This document shows, in pieces, positions 14,918 to 58,527 of a DNA stretch of 64,000 nucleotides. Origin of the DNA: Weissella confusa (GTDB taxonomy: Bacteria; Bacillota; Bacilli; Lactobacillales; Lactobacillaceae). A program made the translations under genes and the position numbers. Positions within the stretch are counted from its first letter, which is position 1. Each line of letters begins with the position of its first letter. Below the pieces are notes generated by a model. The model made no database searches. It was not told the DNA's origin and saw only the letters and a list, made by a program, of their open reading frames with translations. Location: positions 994,501 to 1,058,500 of the forward strand of contig CP168942.1 of assembly GCA_041871065.1 (NCBI GenBank), written 5' to 3'.

Positions 14918-16213
14918 ATGGATACAATTCGCATTGAAGACGCGAAGAACTACGTCGGCCAAGAGGTTCGATTGGGCGCTTGGTTGCGTAACAAGCGTGG
15001 TTCAGGAAAGATGCAATTCTTGCAATTGCGTGACGGTACGGCCTTTTTCCAAGGGGTTGTTTCAAAGGAAGCTGTTGGTGAAGAAATCTTTGCCAAGGCC
15101 AAGGCTTTGACGCAAGAAACGAGCATGTACTTGATTGGTACGATTCGTGAAGACGAGCGTTCACCATTCGGATACGAAATGCAAGTTAAGGATTTGACGG
15201 TTGTTGGGGAGTCAGAAGGTTACCCAATTACACCAAAGGAGCACGGTACTGATTTCTTGATGGATCACCGTCACTTGTACTTGCGCCACATCCAACCATT
15301 TGCTGTTTTGCGTATTCGTAACACGATTATCGCAGCAACGTATGAGTTCTTTAACAAGGAAGGGTTCGTTAAGATTGATTCACCAATTTTGACGGGTTCA
15401 GCACCTGAAGGAACGACTGAATTGTTCCACACGGAATACTTCGATACTGATGCTTACATGTCACAAACTGGACAATTGTACGCTGAGGCTGGGGCAATGG
15501 CCTTTGGACGTGTCTTCACGTTCGGACCAACGTTCCGTGCTGAAAAGTCAAAGACGCGTCGTCACTTGACTGAGTTCTGGATGATCGAGCCAGAAATGGC
15601 TTGGATGCACCAAGAGCAATCACTTGAAGTGCAAGAGCGTTACATCGCTTACTTGATTCAAGCTGTTTTGGATCGTAACGAGTACGAATTGGACTTGTTG
15701 GGACGTGACAAGGAATTGTTGAAGTCATACACGCAATTGCCATACCCACGTTTCTCATATGATGATGCTATCAAGTTGTTGCAAGAAAACGACTTTGATG
15801 TTGAATGGGGTGCTGATTTCGGTTCACCTGAAGAGACGTTCTTGGCAAACCACTTTGCTAAGCCAGTCTTCATCACGAACTTCCCTAAGGAAATTAAGGC
15901 CTTCTACATGAAGCGCCACCCAGACCGCGATGATGTCGTTATCTCAGCTGACTTGTTGGCACCTGAGGGATACGGTGAAATCATTGGTGGTTCAGAGCGT
16001 GATACAGACTACGACTACCTTGAGCAACGTATCAAGGAACAAGGTTTGGATTTGAAGGAATACTCATGGTACTTGGACTTGCGTAAGTATGGTTCAGTAC
16101 CTCACTCAGGATTCGGTCTTGGGTTGGAGCGTGCCGTTACTTGGATTACAGGTGAGGAGCACATCCGTGAGGCAATTCCATTCCCACGTACGATGAACCG
16201 TTTGTGGCCATAA
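14918..16213 (+). CDS. asnS: Asparaginyl-tRNA synthetase
   Basis: The 431-residue class IIb synthetase has an N-terminal OB fold (residues 15-100), class II motif 2 ([20 protein letters not shown]) and motif 3 ([15 protein letters not shown]). It ligates asparagine to tRNA-Asn. Codon use is strongly biased (TTG for Leu, TCA for Ser), as in highly expressed genes. Its last 11 codons lie in the 42-bp phage attachment core, so integration leaves the protein intact. Confidence 0.97.
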
Positions 16214-16220
16214 GCTAAAA
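16179..16220 (+). other. attL core, 42-bp direct repeat
   Basis: These 42 bases, covering the end of asnS and its stop, recur without a mismatch at 58486-58527. The bases beyond the repeat differ on both sides. Integrase, arm-site repeats and phage genes all lie between the copies, so this is the left attachment site. Confidence 0.95.
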
Positions 16221-16386: not shown

Positions 16387-17478
16387 TCAGTCGATTTTAT
16401 CAAGAATATTAAGCGTCTTTGCTTCTTCGCTTTGTTGCTTGTCACGTAGTAGGTGGGCATATACTTGTTGCGTAATTGTAACGTTTGAATGGCCTAAACG
16501 CTTAGATGCATAATTAATGTCGACGCCTTTCGATAGTAAGCAAGAAACGTGCGAGTGACGCAAGCCATGAACGGAAACTATATTTTCAAAACCAAGTTCA
16601 CGTTCAATTCGTTCAAGCCAGTGGTTATTGATAGTAGCCCAACGGCGGCCATCGAATAATTCATTGGCATCGTTCCATTCAGACTTTGCACTAATAAACG
16701 TTTCGTAGTTATCAAAGAAACGATCTGGCATAGCAATAGTGCGAATAGATGATTTTGTTTTTGGCGTGGTTGATTCGCCGGAACGTTGCTTGGTCTTTGT
16801 TACGCTGATATTTTGCGCATCAATATCAACATCATCACGAGTAAGTGCTAATGCTTCACCCGCACGCAGACCTGACAATGCAATCAAATAAATCATGAAT
16901 GACGTGTTCCACTTAATTAGCTTGTCGTTAGTTTCGATGTATTTAAGTAGCTGGTTAAACTCATCAACTTGAAGGAATTTTTCATCCGCAGACTTAGAAT
17001 CAGCGCCTGGTATAACAACGCCATAGGTGGGGTCAGCTGTTATTAAACCATCGTGAAATGCTTGTTCGATTACTTGTTTCATAATCTGGTGACGCTTAAG
17101 TACAGATTTACGTTTCTTGTCACTTGAATAATCGTTCAAGAATGCTTGATACATTTGGCGAGTAATCTGATCTAGTGTTACATTCTTAAAATACACATCA
17201 ACAACGTATTTGCGAACTGCATGCCATGATTCTTTTGTTGTTTCCTTGAGACCAGCATCGAACCGTAATTGTTGATACTCGTCGAAATAATCGCTGAAAA
17301 GGGTAAGGGTGCCTTTTTGAAGTGTTGGCTTGCTATTAGCAACTGAGTATTCAGCCACCCAAGCTTCAGCTTCCTTTTTAGTCTTGAAACCACGCTTACC
17401 TTTTTTGCGATATTTTCCGGTTGTGTCTTTGAATGATATTTCAACACGCCAACCGGTGTCGGTTCTGTATACTGCCAT
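16387..17478 (-). CDS. int: Phage integrase, tyrosine recombinase
   Basis: The 363-residue protein has an N-terminal AP2-like arm-binding domain (GWRVEISFKDTTGKYRKKGK, FKTKKEAEAWVAEY), a SAM-like core-binding domain (about 65-160) and a catalytic domain with Arg in SGLRAGEAL (about 203), HxxR in HGLRHSH (about 304) and the Tyr in VYAHLL (about 340). It catalyses integration at the asnS 3' end. It is transcribed toward attL, the usual lactococcal-type arrangement. Confidence 0.95.
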   Translation of the reverse strand: MAVYRTDTGWRVEISFKDTTGKYRKKGKRGFKTKKEAEAWVAEYSVANSKPTLQKGTLTLFSDYFDEYQQLRFDAGLKETTKESWHAVRKYVVDVYFKNVTLDQITRQMYQAFLNDYSSDKKRKSVLKRHQIMKQVIEQAFHDGLITADPTYGVVIPGADSKSADEKFLQVDEFNQLLKYIETNDKLIKWNTSFMIYLIALSGLRAGEALALTRDDVDIDAQNISVTKTKQRSGESTTPKTKSSIRTIAMPDRFFDNYETFISAKSEWNDANELFDGRRWATINNHWLERIERELGFENIVSVHGLRHSHVSCLLSKGVDINYASKRLGHSNVTITQQVYAHLLRDKQQSEEAKTLNILDKID

Positions 17479-17516: not shown

Positions 17517-17628
17517 TTTAAAGACATGCCTAGGTCTGGTACAATTGAATACGTAAATAGGGCAGTGATGTTCTGTTTTGTTCGATACGCACACTACTTG
17601 TTTGGCGACGGGGAGTGTGCTTTTTGTT
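17517..17628 (+). ncRNA. Possible small plus-strand transcript with terminator
   Basis: TTTAAA (17517-17522), a 17-bp gap and TACAAT (17540-17545) form a moderate promoter. About 70 bases downstream GCACACT (17589-17595) pairs with AGTGTGC (17614-17620) followed by TTTTT. The unit lies between two minus-strand genes and points at the 3' end of the Abi gene. It could be an antisense RNA or encode a tiny peptide (ATG 17569); neither is established. Confidence 0.35.
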
Positions 17629-18602
17629 TAAAGAATAAAGTCTTTATAGTTTTGAGGAAAATTCATATCATTTAAGACGGAATTAAATGTAATTGATTTG
17701 AAATCGTTCTGATAGTCACGTATCAATTCATCAATGCGATGAGCAAGTTTTTTAAAGTCTTTTTTAGGCAATACAACCTTGAGTCCGATTAATAATTCAA
17801 AAACGCCAGCTTGACTGTTCAATGGAATATTAGGGTTTCCAAGTGCAGCCTTAAAAGGACGCAAGTTTGGAGTCTTGAAAATCTTTTTTGAGAAAGTTAT
17901 TTCGCCATGAGCTACTGCGTTTCTGAAATGATTTACAAGTTGGTTAACAGAATCTATAGCCTCAGGCTGAATACCGGCAATAAATTGACCGGGGTACGAG
18001 CGACGCTGAAAATGCGTAAAATCTTTTGCGACGGTGATGCGCAAGTCGTTGGTCATTATTTGGTGAAAGAAATTGATGTCACCAAACGTCAAAAAGTTGA
18101 CTAGAACCCAGAGCGGAACATGACGGTGTTTGTTAACGTAATGCTTAATTGCGTTGTCTTGACCGGACTTATTTTTAACAACATTTGAAAGTGAACTGAT
18201 GGTTCTAACTACGCTTTGTACCTTTTGAGGGTCTCTTGTGAAGTTGTCGATAGCAAGGTATGAATGTTCTTCTGGATGCGCCTCGGAAAATCGATATGAA
18301 ACAGTGGCGTTAAGGGTGTTTTCGTACTTCAGTAGTGATTCAAATAATATTGATCTTAATTCTCTGTCGAAATCGTATAAAGATTGTATTTCAGAAAAAT
18401 TAGCTCCATTAACAAATTGCTCTGGAGAAATTACAGTTCCTTTTGAATCACGTTGTAGAAAAGACCATTTGTAGCCGTTTATGATTGCGTAATACCCATT
18501 TTGCTCCAAACTTCTTTTGGCGTTGCTTGGGACATTCAGGCCTCGGTCTCGTAAAATCTTAAGTTGCTGATTTAGCGTTTTGAATGGTTTGGAATTAGTC
18601 AT
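17628..18602 (-). CDS. Abi_2 family (AbiD/AbiF-like) abortive infection protein, HEPN
   Basis: The 324-residue protein matches the Abi_2 pattern: N-terminal TLNQQLKILRDRGLNV and LEQNGYYAIINGYKW, the central FDRELRSILFESLLKYENTLNATVSYRF, and PLWVLVNFLTFGDINFFHQIM. LVNHFRNAVAHGE gives the HEPN ribonuclease motif R-N-xxx-H. AbiD/F proteins arrest phage growth, presumably by RNA cleavage. It is immediately preceded by a promoter and a structured RNA on the same strand, as in abiF-associated ncRNA systems. Lower GC than the neighbouring phage genes suggests separate acquisition. Confidence 0.85.
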   Translation of the reverse strand: MTNSKPFKTLNQQLKILRDRGLNVPSNAKRSLEQNGYYAIINGYKWSFLQRDSKGTVISPEQFVNGANFSEIQSLYDFDRELRSILFESLLKYENTLNATVSYRFSEAHPEEHSYLAIDNFTRDPQKVQSVVRTISSLSNVVKNKSGQDNAIKHYVNKHRHVPLWVLVNFLTFGDINFFHQIMTNDLRITVAKDFTHFQRRSYPGQFIAGIQPEAIDSVNQLVNHFRNAVAHGEITFSKKIFKTPNLRPFKAALGNPNIPLNSQAGVFELLIGLKVVLPKKDFKKLAHRIDELIRDYQNDFKSITFNSVLNDMNFPQNYKDFIL

Positions 18603-18618
18603 GTATCAATTCTCCTAT

Positions 18619-18712
18619 GAAAAACAAAAGCCCCGGTATAATGTGTAAACACATAAACCGGGGCTTTGTTAGTTCGGCACCTAACTCCAAGGGCCCTCCG
18701 AACTTGATCTAT
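18619..18712 (-). ncRNA. abiF-type structured small RNA upstream of the Abi_2 gene
   Basis: Read on the minus strand from about 18712, the RNA has a stem GUUCGG / CCGAAC (enclosing AGGGCCCUU), a possible pseudoknot in which GUUA of the loop pairs with UAAC just after the stem, and a long terminator hairpin (ACCGGGGCUUU arms, 18627-18639 and 18657-18667) ending in a U-rich tract. It is driven by a consensus promoter and ends 16 bases before the Abi start. The position and design match the abiF RNA motif known from comparative genomics; family membership was recalled, not tested. Confidence 0.65.
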
Positions 18713-18718
18713 GTGATT

Positions 18719-18747
18719 AATATATAGCTAGACTGTTTTTTTGTCAA
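18719..18747 (-). promoter_or_regulatory. Strong promoter of the abiF-type RNA
   Basis: TTGACA (18742-18747) and TATATT (18719-18724) with a 17-bp spacer on the minus strand. Confidence 0.75.
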
Positions 18748-19000
18748 TATAAATGTTCGTAAATAGACCGTGAAACGAATACTTGGCTGAACTTTATTCC
18801 TTTAAAATCGAACATGAGCGCATTAATAGCGAAAAATAAAATTGATAATTTCTATTTAAAACTAGAAAAGCGAACATTTACAACGGAGCGTTATATATTA
18901 CATTTTCAGTTTTTCTTTCTGAAACGTTGACATAAATGCTGATCGATTGAAATGAATAGCCGGTTTGGTTAGTTTCCGTTTTTTAATAGTGTATATATCG
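18748..19000. other. AT-rich intergenic stretch, no gene seen
   Basis: About 250 AT-rich bases lie between the ncRNA promoter and the SHOCT gene. An inverted repeat TTGGTTAG / CTAACCAA (about 18965 and 19002) reaches into the SHOCT stop codon but has no T run. No coding frame or RNA gene could be supported. Confidence 0.4.
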
Positions 19001-20337: not shown

Positions 20338-20745
20338 TCATGCTTGCATAACCGCTTCACGGGCCATATCTTCAAAGTGCGATTGCAAGCCAAGATAGTT
20401 CATAAAGTCCAGCCAATTTCTACTTTCTACCGGGACATCATCAAACCAAAATGAAGCAATCATGCGTATTGCTTGTACATTGGCTGCACGTTCTGAAACT
20501 CTCATTATGTAAGGCGAAAAGTTATAAACTGCATCCGATTCCGTGTCACCATAAAGCAGGTGAGCTAGTTCATGAGCTAATCTGAACTCATATGCATACT
20601 GCGTACTTGAATTCGGATTCATGATGATCATAGATAAAAATGGTATTGCCATATCTGGACCATCGTCTTTTGTCTCAACATTAGAAACAGTTATATCATT
20701 CCGCCTTGCCAAGTTGAGAAGATATTCTCTTAATTCTTTCATCAT
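20338..20745 (-). CDS. ImmA/IrrE-family metallopeptidase
   Basis: The 135-residue protein has the zinc protease motif HELAH in EFRLAHELAHLLYGD (HExxH) with a downstream acidic SERAANVQAIRMI helix. ImmA-type proteases cleave the CI-like repressor after DNA damage and so induce the prophage. It overlaps the repressor gene by 4 bases (ATGA), the usual CI-ImmA pairing. Confidence 0.88.
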   Translation of the reverse strand: MMKELREYLLNLARRNDITVSNVETKDDGPDMAIPFLSMIIMNPNSSTQYAYEFRLAHELAHLLYGDTESDAVYNFSPYIMRVSERAANVQAIRMIASFWFDDVPVESRNWLDFMNYLGLQSHFEDMAREAVMQA

Positions 20746-21089
20746 TCACCAAGCATCAACTTAGCCATTTCGTACAACTTGATTTTTTGTTCATCAGTTA
20801 GTTCTTTACCTTCAAAGCGAAGGGTAGGGCCTAACTTGGCTAAGACTTCTTCAAGATCCACAGGCATATCGTCCTTCTTATTACTGTGCATCTCATCAGT
20901 GTTACCTAATAGGTAGTCTACTGATACGCCGAGGACTTTTGCGAGAGCAGCCACAGTTGAATACTTTGGTTCAACCCCTTGATTGTATCTATAAAGAGCG
21001 TTTTCGCTGAATCCTGCGTCAATAGCTAACTTTTTAAGGCTATATCCCCGTTCATTCGCAACTTTTTTAATTCTTTCAAACGTAGTCAT
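20742..21089 (-). CDS. CI-like phage repressor (XRE)
   Basis: The start is set at ATG 21089 (GGAG upstream), giving 115 residues with an N-terminal XRE domain: KVANERGYSLKKLAIDAGFS, ENALYRYNQGVEPKYSTVAAL, KVLGVSVDYLLGN. The short acidic C-terminus probably mediates dimerisation or the ImmA contact. Its promoter region has inverted repeats that fit operators. It maintains lysogeny. Confidence 0.88.
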   Translation of the reverse strand: MTTFERIKKVANERGYSLKKLAIDAGFSENALYRYNQGVEPKYSTVAALAKVLGVSVDYLLGNTDEMHSNKKDDMPVDLEEVLAKLGPTLRFEGKELTDEQKIKLYEMAKLMLGE

Positions 21090-21156
21090 ATCAATGATTT
21101 CTCCAAGATGTGACGAATTAAAGCACACAAAAGCACACAAAATAGTTTGCAAAAGA

Positions 21157-32683: not shown

Positions 32684-32786
32684 GTATTTGTAGCATATTA
32701 GGTAATGCAGTAAATTGTTGATCTCCATTCTGAGAGATGAAAGATTCAGGTTTAGTAATAAATGAGTTCGAAACTCATCAGATACA
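32684..32786 (+). ncRNA. Enlarged tRNA-like element 2
   Basis: A 7-bp acceptor (GTATTTG / CAGATAC), D-arm (GCAT-ATTAGGTA-ATGC) and a perfect T-arm (ATGAG-TTCGAAA-CTCAT) are in canonical order. The D-arm to T-arm distance is 53 bases, about 30 too many, and the central part offers ATCTC / GAGAT or CTGA / TCAG stems but no clean 7-base anticodon loop. The total is 102-103 bases. Confidence 0.4.
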
Positions 32787-57129: not shown

Positions 57130-57174
57130 AAGCCCGTCTGGACTTGGATTAACTTCCTCGTCTGGCGGGCTTTT
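57130..57174 (+). terminator. Terminator of the Panacea cassette (repeat copy 2)
   Basis: AAGCCCGTCTGGAC pairs with the far arm GTCTGGCGGGCTT, followed by TTTT. It differs from copy 3 (58285) by a single base over 44. Confidence 0.85.
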
Positions 57175-57185
57175 CTGTATTGAAA

Positions 57186-57258
57186 TTGACATTCAATATG
57201 GTGCCGCATATAATAAAGGTATATCAAGTCCCCGGGCAATTATGTTCGGGCTTTTTTT
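57186..57258 (+). ncRNA. Consensus promoter and short terminated leader before second Abi_2 gene
   Basis: TTGACA (57186-57191), 17 bp, TATAAT (57209-57214): a perfect sigma-A promoter. Only about 10 bases after the expected start a hairpin CCCGGGC-AAUUAU-GUUCGGG followed by seven T forms an intrinsic terminator at 57229-57258. Most transcripts should stop as a roughly 40-base RNA; read-through gives the Abi mRNA. This may be an attenuator or a small regulatory RNA. Confidence 0.6.
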
Positions 57259-57279
57259 ATAGTAAAGTTGGAATTAAAA

Positions 57280-58263
57280 ATGAATATACAAGATGAAGAT
57301 CAAAAACTTGTAAATGTTTTTAGTGATCGAAAGATGACAATCGATTCAGAAAATGCAAGTATCTACATTAAAAATATCGGATACTATAAGTTAAAAGAAT
57401 ACGCAAAGCCATTTGTAAGGGATGGTCTATATGATGGACTACTATTCAGCAGTGTGTTAAAACGATATTTTTTTGATAAAAACCTAAGAATACATTTATT
57501 ACATATTATCGAAATGATTGAACTAGCCTTTAAAAACAGTCTTGCCGAGCTAATAGGTAATGACTCTGGCCCATTTGGATATTTGGACTTTTTAGTTTGG
57601 GCTGATCAAGGACGTTATACCTCTGAGTATATTATTGGAGAACAATCTTTGATAAAAAATACAATTTTGAAAAGAATTAAAAATATGAATGAATATTCAA
57701 ATCCAGAATATTTTGACGAAAAAAATCTCACTTTAAAAGATAATAAATATAATAAAGTAGAAAATGGTTCTCAACCTAAGAAGTATCCTACCGTTTGGCT
57801 AGCATTTGATTTATTATCATTTGGACAATTACATCATATTTACCAACTTTTACCGTTGGAAAGTAAGGATAAAATTGCTAAAAATTTTAATTGTGGTAGT
57901 TCTGAATTAAATTCATGGATTGGGGCAATGGTTTTAGTTAGAAACGTTTGTGCACACAGTTCTAATTTAATTGATATTGAATTTAAAACTGTGCCAAAAT
58001 CTAAAGTCGAATGGAGAGAATATTTACATGTTCACGAACGAAAAAATGGTAAAACTGAGATAACTAATAAATTAGCCAGCGTTATTATTCCGATAGTTTA
58101 TTTGGCTCATAATATAGATCAAAATTATGGTTTTGGAGACATTTATAAAGATATTCAAAACGCCATAAAGCCTGTAAGAAAAAACGGTGAAAATCAAGCG
58201 CAAGCATTAGGCTTTAGTAGCAAGGCAAAAATGATTAAGTTCTTTTCAAATTATTTTCAATAA
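57280..58263 (+). CDS. Second Abi_2 family (AbiD/F-like) HEPN protein
   Basis: 327 residues from ATG 57280; TTG 57268 is possible and neither has a good ribosome binding site. Abi_2 features: YIKNIGYYKLKEYAKPFV, FFDKNLRIHLLHIIEMIELA, TVWLAFDLLSFGQLHHIYQL and the HEPN motif in LVRNVCAHSSNL (R-N-xxx-H). It is only distantly similar to the Abi_2 protein at 17628. GC content is clearly lower than the rest of the prophage. It is the last gene before attR. Confidence 0.82.
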   Translation: MNIQDEDQKLVNVFSDRKMTIDSENASIYIKNIGYYKLKEYAKPFVRDGLYDGLLFSSVLKRYFFDKNLRIHLLHIIEMIELAFKNSLAELIGNDSGPFGYLDFLVWADQGRYTSEYIIGEQSLIKNTILKRIKNMNEYSNPEYFDEKNLTLKDNKYNKVENGSQPKKYPTVWLAFDLLSFGQLHHIYQLLPLESKDKIAKNFNCGSSELNSWIGAMVLVRNVCAHSSNLIDIEFKTVPKSKVEWREYLHVHERKNGKTEITNKLASVIIPIVYLAHNIDQNYGFGDIYKDIQNAIKPVRKNGENQAQALGFSSKAKMIKFFSNYFQ

Positions 58264-58284: not shown

Positions 58285-58333
58285 AAAAAAGCCCGCTGGA
58301 CTTGGATTAACTTCCTCGTCTGGCGGGCTTTTT
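58285..58333 (+). terminator. Terminator of the second Abi cassette (repeat copy 3)
   Basis: AAAAAAGCCCGCTGGAC pairs with GTCTGGCGGGCTTTTT. Near-identical to copy 2, including the loop. Confidence 0.85.
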
Positions 58334-58485: not shown

Positions 58486-58527
58486 CATTCCCACGTACGA
58501 TGAACCGTTTGTGGCCATAAGCTAAAA
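58486..58527 (+). other. attR core, 42-bp direct repeat
   Basis: Identical to 16179-16220. It holds a non-functional copy of the last asnS codons and stop, followed by the native host terminator. Confidence 0.95.

Follow-up and report, generated by a model that had tools for sequence, protein, structure and literature searches.

Whether the short RNA in front of an Abi_2 gene in Weissella confusa belongs to a described family of antitoxin RNAs, and whether it serves only the gene behind it, is the question raised by this locus. The window, that is, the whole stretch of 64,000 nucleotides analysed here, contains the following features that bear on it:

16179..16220, no strand: left 42-bp repeat, likely att, at the 3' end of a gene that we take to be asnS (identity to the right repeat)
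16387..17478, minus strand: prophage integrase, the next gene downstream of the Abi_2 gene (Phage_integrase, E 1.4e-20)
17628..18602, minus strand: Abi_2/AbiF-type HEPN protein of 324 aa (ORF translation, Pfam, PADLOC, PDB sequence matches, AlphaFold2)
17907..17924, minus strand: HEPN motif RNAVAH, residues 227-232 (alignment)
18612..18616, minus strand: AGGAG ribosome-binding site (read from sequence)
18619..18712, minus strand: structured small RNA of ~94 nt, a predicted transcript with approximate ends (folding, covariance model R1)
18621..18667, minus strand: intrinsic terminator, hairpin and T tract, between RNA and gene (folding)
18661..18712, minus strand: conserved RNA core, consensus AYAGAUCAAGUYYRRAGGGCCCnnGGAGUAGGUGYYRRACUAAC (alignment A2, pair counts)
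18719..18747, minus strand: promoter TTGACA-17-TATATT (read from sequence and promoter scan)
58486..58527, no strand: right 42-bp repeat, likely att (100% identical to 16179-16220)

The Abi_2 unit and its prophage setting

The open reading frame at 17628-18602 encodes the 324-residue Abi_2 protein with an R-N-xxx-H HEPN motif that the initial annotation had described. Its Abi_2 domain scored 120.9 bits against a Pfam cut-off of 25.6, which places the protein in the family, and PADLOC assigned it to AbiD (165.1 bits). The motif RNAVAH conforms to the R-polar-xxx-H pattern of HEPN proteins, and R227, N228 and H232 were invariant in all 59 aligned sequences, including the window protein. A sequence search of the PDB returned a single chain, 8VZ6 (phmmer E 1.4e-9; profile E 6.5e-17), a similarity of sequence only, with the profile match spanning positions 5-199. 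According to a figure legend in a review, 8VZ6 is a PbAbiF-ncRNA complex (PMC12737573). PbAbiF with its RNA AbiFr is thus like the window unit in belonging to the Abi_2 family, whereas its protein is remote in sequence; the comparison covers the protein alone. The AlphaFold2 model of the window protein had a mean pLDDT of 94.4 and a pTM of 0.90. A relative with 99% identity also comes from Weissella confusa.

The order of promoter, RNA, terminator and toxin gene can be read directly on the minus strand, as had been annotated, and most details of that annotation held. The predicted promoter is near-consensus: the -35 box TTGACA (18747-18742) and the -10 box TATATT (18724-18719), separated by 17 nt, match 11 of 12 consensus letters, and the site scored highest in a scan of a 1.7-kb stretch that returned 11 promoter-like sites, compared with a shuffle mean of 4.4. 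In 11 of 12 loci, the window included, a promoter of 10-12 consensus letters ends 8-10 nt upstream of GATCAAGT, the exception being the relative L011. The RNA, given earlier as about 95 bases, is predicted to run for ~94 nt from 18712 to 18619 and folds far better than shuffled sequences, the stretch 18715-18622 having a folding energy of -37.2 kcal/mol vs -21.9 for shuffles (z -4.9; 0 of 200 shuffles as low). The covariance model R1 found one copy in the window, at the small RNA, with 74.4 bits. The proposed stem is present, but its length of 6 bp was wrong, the conserved stem having 7 bp (18704-18698 paired with 18677-18671). The suggested GUUA/UAAC pseudoknot was abandoned: among 10 distinct sequences, two of its pairs were invariant, one was gapped in 7 of 10, and no pair showed a compensatory change. 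The intrinsic terminator after the RNA was recovered by folding as a hairpin with a T tract, though the simple terminator scan did not list it.

Judged from sequence, the arrangement has the layout of a type III toxin-antitoxin system, with the RNA upstream of the toxin, a shared promoter and a terminator between them. The tandem repeats typical of type III antitoxin RNAs are absent, R1 giving a single match in the window.

The unit is flanked by the integrase gene on one side and, on the other, by a run of genes of which the last encodes a Cro/C1-type regulator (20742-21152). In a Streptococcus phage relative, Javan119 (37.6% identity), the Abi_2 gene is likewise located between repressor and integrase. 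The perfect 42-bp repeats suggest a prophage of ~42.3 kb in the 3' end of asnS, a name presumed from the sequence of the gene without a search.

At the other prophage end we observed a second Abi_2 unit (57186-58263), which has the promoter TTGACA-17-TATAAT, a short stretch with a hairpin and T tract, and an ORF (57268-58263) with RNVCAH; R1 had no match at this unit. An identical 37-nt repeat flanks it on both sides (57138-57174 and 58296-58332), within terminator-like sequence, as if the unit had been inserted as a cassette. The prophage also contains an Rfam tRNA match of 40 bits at 32684-32786, downstream of tRNA-Met and tRNA-Leu, for which ARAGORN made no call and behind which R1 found no RNA.

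A distinct class of RNA before Abi_2 genes

The initial annotation had regarded the locus as an abiF-type RNA-protein unit, to be recognised by a covariance search with the Rfam abiF family. As a unit of AbiF-kind RNA and HEPN protein this stands, but the RNA does not fall in RF03085: that model gave no match in the window at its gathering score and none at E<=10 over 18580-18800, which rules out membership. The two RNAs share the same genetic position, as short hairpin RNAs before an Abi_2 gene, whereas their consensus and layout differ. A survey of 198 Lactobacillales genomes with RF03085, which served solely for reading its consensus, gave three matches at E<=0.001 and none above the cut-off.

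The RNA was present in all 11 fetched relatives from Lactobacillaceae with 47-61% protein identity (L003, L008-L017), and R1 matched none of 19 loci with 23-35% protein identity at E<0.1 (L018-L036). Alignment A2, which comprises 11 rows with L011 excluded, has the invariant blocks AGAU, AAGU, GGAG, UAGGU and ACUA and the 7-bp stem AGUYYRR/YYRRACU, four pairs of which show compensatory double changes in the pair counts. For 34 distinct RNAs, aligned by fitting to the structure before covariation was counted, four of the seven pairs had double changes, 99.2% of cells were paired and 40 cells were double changes. The covariation score of this stem exceeded all 500 shuffles. Three of five measures did so; the other two did not, namely double-change pairs (137 of 500) and further pair types (500 of 500). 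Only two rows of alignment A5, L011 and L092, break a stem pair. In L011 the protein has an internal stop, the promoter is gone and one stem pair is lost, as if RNA and toxin had decayed together. The predicted RNA of the window is a distinct conserved class outside Rfam abiF.

The order of promoter, hairpin with T tract and gene was found at 24 of 31 Abi_2 loci (a count that takes in the window and also L011, whose match is spurious), compared with 1 of 48 other ORFs there. Distant Abi_2 genes often share this layout, although their RNA sequences differ. Visual inspection suggests that at least two further recurrent RNA types precede such genes (L021-L029, L144 and L145; L030, L031, L033 and L035). 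Rfam searches of 17 distant Abi_2 loci returned nothing but tRNA at E<=0.05. A pattern for the second RNA type from these loci gave 0 viral matches, and the toxin-free copies reported below are therefore not generalised to other RNA types.

The lactococcal Abi_2 genes on pNP40 and pIL105, which we take to be abiF and abiD1 (the records read Abi family protein), resemble the window in that a short RNA-like stretch with a T tract precedes them. Unlike the window class, these stretches have a motif, CACGCCUCU..GCGCAU, that looks similar to RF03085 by eye; the Rfam abiF model did not match them at E<=0.5.

Copies of the RNA apart from the toxin gene

Among 397 Lactobacillaceae genomes, R1 gave 25 matches in 23 genomes. 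Twelve of them precede an Abi_2 gene, which is broken in two cases (L081, L088), and the other 13 have no intact Abi_2 gene nearby (L071, L074, L093, L079, L080, L083, L085, L087, L094, L089, L090, L091 and L092). Within the range that was checked, ~1.5 kb to either side, or 0.86 kb downstream in the case of L080, a 40-residue Abi_2 remnant was found at L090 and none at the other 12. One genome contains both L074 and L093, in identical surroundings. A promoter at the usual distance was recognised by eye for L079, L080, L085 and L087, that of L079 resembling the promoter of the L014 unit. L071 follows a tRNA-Ser gene at a distance of 5 nt, L089 is a weak match and L092 has one broken stem pair. 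A search of 295 order-level genomes gave eight matches, six already among the Lactobacillaceae ones. L126 and L127 (27.7 and 31.6 bits), outside the family, overlap protein genes and were judged to be chance; R1 matches of 28-32 bits therefore need support from their context.

A 19-base core pattern was found in 30 IMG/VR viral contigs, and the reversed pattern in none. Five contigs are linked to AbiF (L061, L062, L066, L097, L098), L100 is cut by the contig end, and 24 are toxin-free (L102-L125) over the stretch examined, which after the core extends for 329 nt in L111 and 817 nt in L110. As with pseudo-ToxI, 24 of the 30 viral matches thus present an antitoxin-like RNA in a phage without an adjoining toxin. 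The four stem pairs left free by the pattern paired in 44 of 44 cases in 11 distinct viral cores, and in 32 of 32 in the eight cores that were new to the alignment of the model. Of 11 viral contigs scored with R1, nine reached only 24.8-34.5 bits. The loop is changed in most phage copies, from GGGCCC to UAAACCC or GAAGCCC, and a blastn search of phage records with the window RNA found no match. That the RNA of an AbiF unit also occurs without the toxin is new, and the initial annotation had missed both this occurrence, in phages and in chromosomes, and the distinctness of the predicted RNA class.

In 22 of the 24 toxin-free contigs, the RNA follows a tRNA-like end (the best-scoring T-arm and acceptor strand), with 8-10 nt from this end to AAGU, discriminator included. 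In 19 of these contigs the score was reached by no more than 2 of 100 shuffles, the values for L105, L109 and L116 being 5, 11 and 9. L104 has a truncated tRNA end before the RNA, and L114 has a promoter instead, by eye. According to a simple test, a hairpin and then a T tract follow the RNA in 23 of the 24, L125 being the exception. The genome copies L083, L091 and L092 have the tRNA-like geometry too (0 of 100 shuffles each), whereas at nine comparison loci (L074, L079, L080, L085, L087, L094, L097, L098 and L071, the tRNA-Ser spacing of the last lying outside the scanned range) 15-94 of 100 shuffles were as high. The tRNA-like bodies of the 22 contigs are of five kinds, judged by their ends, and only some of those tested were called tRNA by Rfam and ARAGORN, often without an anticodon. 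Unusual T loops (TGCAAAT, TGCAACT) were noticed in the bodies of L103, L105, L121 and others. In the promoter-driven units, the predicted RNA start is at about the same distance from AAGU as the tRNA-like ends, and an identical 5' end could therefore arise by tRNA maturation.

L102 is identical to phages PL-1 and J-1 over 91 compared bases, and a stretch of L092 matches 48 phage records, 47 of them from Lactobacillus or Lacticaseibacillus phages. On stretches of 10 named phages, R1 gave seven matches at E<=1: CL1, PL-1, J-1, CL2 and R24.2 below 0.01, and weakly R24.1 (E 0.088) and JNU_P9 (E 0.25); Lrm1, Lc-Nu and iLp1308 had none at E<=1. The records of the seven positive phages carry no annotation on the RNA, and that of CL2 has a 'tRNA-OTHER' just before it. 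Many phage RNAs precede a GcrA-like gene near the genome end. It is unlikely that the phage copies are attP sites, the neighbours in PL-1 and CL2 not being integrases and the tRNA-like bodies looking whole. Two other search patterns were set aside: AGATCAAGTYYRRAGGGCC found 10 viral contigs, of which L095, L096, L099 and L101 were judged to be chance, two of them having an R1 score of 20.6 bits and the other two no R1 match, and GGAGGGCCCTNGGAG, with 30 contigs and a fuller core in three, was too unspecific.

A title by Rince et al. 2000 reportedly points to a region of Lactococcus phage sk1, which prompted the idea of an AbiF antitoxin copy there. We found neither an RF03085 match in sk1 at E<=1 nor a GCCTC..ATGC motif. 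At the end of its middle operon, sk1 has a long stretch without annotated genes (L140:27381-27910), in which we noticed two tRNA-like genes, one of them tRNA-Trp-like and unannotated, and, on visual inspection, one more tRNA-like end.

Proposed mechanism and alternatives

Studied systems offer two points of comparison. In Clostridioides difficile, RCd22 is described as neutralising AbiF in two ways, through termination in cis and through direct binding in trans, and the HEPN residues R202 and H207 of AbiF as needed for toxicity (PMC12373285). As portrayed there, RCd22-AbiFCd of prophage phi027 is like the window unit in its prophage location, SigA-type promoter, RNA of ~100 nt, terminator and Abi_2 HEPN protein with R-N-xxx-H; unlike it, RCd22 has two RF03085 motifs and lies in the lysis module, whereas the window unit has a single core from a different RNA class and adjoins the integrase gene (PMC12373285). 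Phage phiTE carries pseudo-ToxI, reported as an RNA mimic that defeats the type III system ToxIN, and so sets a precedent for a phage carrying an antitoxin-like RNA against such a system (PMC3475682). There as here, a phage bears a copy of the RNA antitoxin of a defence system. Pseudo-ToxI, however, concerns another toxin family, consists of repeats and has a demonstrated function, whereas here a single core stands behind a tRNA-like gene and its function is one that we infer (PMC3475682).

We consider it very probable that the unit is an AbiF-type, type-III-like toxin-antitoxin or abortive-infection module on a prophage, and that its RNA binds and silences the HEPN enzyme; as a further proposal, the phage copies may be antidotes. 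By analogy with the studied relatives, the single promoter would yield mostly the short RNA ending at the terminator, made in excess, and occasional read-through would yield the Abi_2 HEPN ribonuclease. The RNA, a 7-bp hairpin in which both the loop (GGGCCCnnGGAGUAGGU) and the flanking segments (GAUCAAGU, ACUA) are strongly conserved, would bind the HEPN dimer and keep the enzyme inactive. Infection that upsets transcription or the RNA would free the enzyme, which would cut RNA and stop growth. The existence of toxin-free copies argues that the RNA works in trans.

An RNA acting only in cis, as an attenuator or a 5'-UTR switch through which a phage signal would turn on toxin synthesis, with no binding to the protein, would suit the position of the terminator between RNA and gene, and a phage protein is said to bind the 5' UTR of AbiD1 and activate translation (PMC12373285). 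We regard this as very unlikely for the window RNA, considering that no intact Abi_2 gene to control lies within the stretch examined at 13 of the 25 genome copies and at 24 of the 30 viral ones, nearly all of which keep the stem. A guide function, in which the RNA would direct the HEPN enzyme to its targets as a forerunner of the Cas13 crRNA, is extremely improbable: AbiF has been proposed as the ancestor of Cas13 (PMC12737573), but the RNA has no variable guide segment and its loop is strongly conserved among relatives.

The toxin-free copies might instead be functionless, decaying remnants of lost AbiF units, as the remnant at L090, the L014-like promoter of L079, the weak L089 and the broken pair of L092 could indicate. 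This is unlikely in view of the other 12 genome copies, which lack an Abi_2 remnant over the same range, and of the viral copies, which keep their stem by pair-saving changes, are nearly always followed by a hairpin and T tract, and in 22 of 24 cases keep a spacing of 8-10 nt behind tRNA-like bodies of five kinds. The retained stem, hairpin with T tract and tRNA-like placement suggest selection on the viral copies. It is decidedly unlikely that the phage RNAs are an unrelated phage element, such as a signal for packaging or processing, whose resemblance to the AbiF RNA is accidental. The GcrA-like gene behind many of them would fit such an element, and R1 scores of 25-35 bits are by themselves compatible with chance, the matches of L126 and L127 overlapping protein genes; but the 19-base pattern has no reversed counterpart, the free stem positions always pair, also in the new cores, and toxin-free intermediates of 53-76 bits (L125, L083, L071, L114), behind tRNA-like ends, a tRNA or a promoter, bridge the score range.

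If the RNA silences the HEPN enzyme in trans, the toxin-free RNAs behind phage tRNA-like genes would be antidotes by which other phages disarm AbiF. The specific proposal that phages of lactic acid bacteria carry AbiF antidote RNAs as single copies behind tRNA-like genes, with a 5' end from tRNA 3'-end maturation without a promoter and with a terminator of their own, is evenly balanced in our judgement. In 30 genomes, one per species, of the probable host genus, taken to be Lacticaseibacillus, a full-length AbiF with >40% identity was present in one, a promoter-type toxin-free copy in one and phage-type copies in two; with one such AbiF in 30 genomes, an encounter of these phages with a cognate AbiF is so far unsupported. 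Among the papers listed by literature searches, titles and abstract openings mentioned no AbiF RNA class of Lactobacillaceae and no toxin-free phage AbiF RNAs; the primary AbiF-Cas13 paper, outside this search, may hold more on AbiF RNA diversity.

These results provide a compact class of antitoxin RNAs outside Rfam that shows clear covariation and comes with a set of cognate AbiF proteins. They also provide candidate RNA anti-AbiF elements in the known phages PL-1, J-1, CL1 and CL2, which bear on AbiF silencing and phage escape. If the antidote proposal is true, the trailer of a phage tRNA-like gene would be an unusual deployment of an RNA antidefence element, and it could explain why phage tRNA-like genes without a clear anticodon exist.
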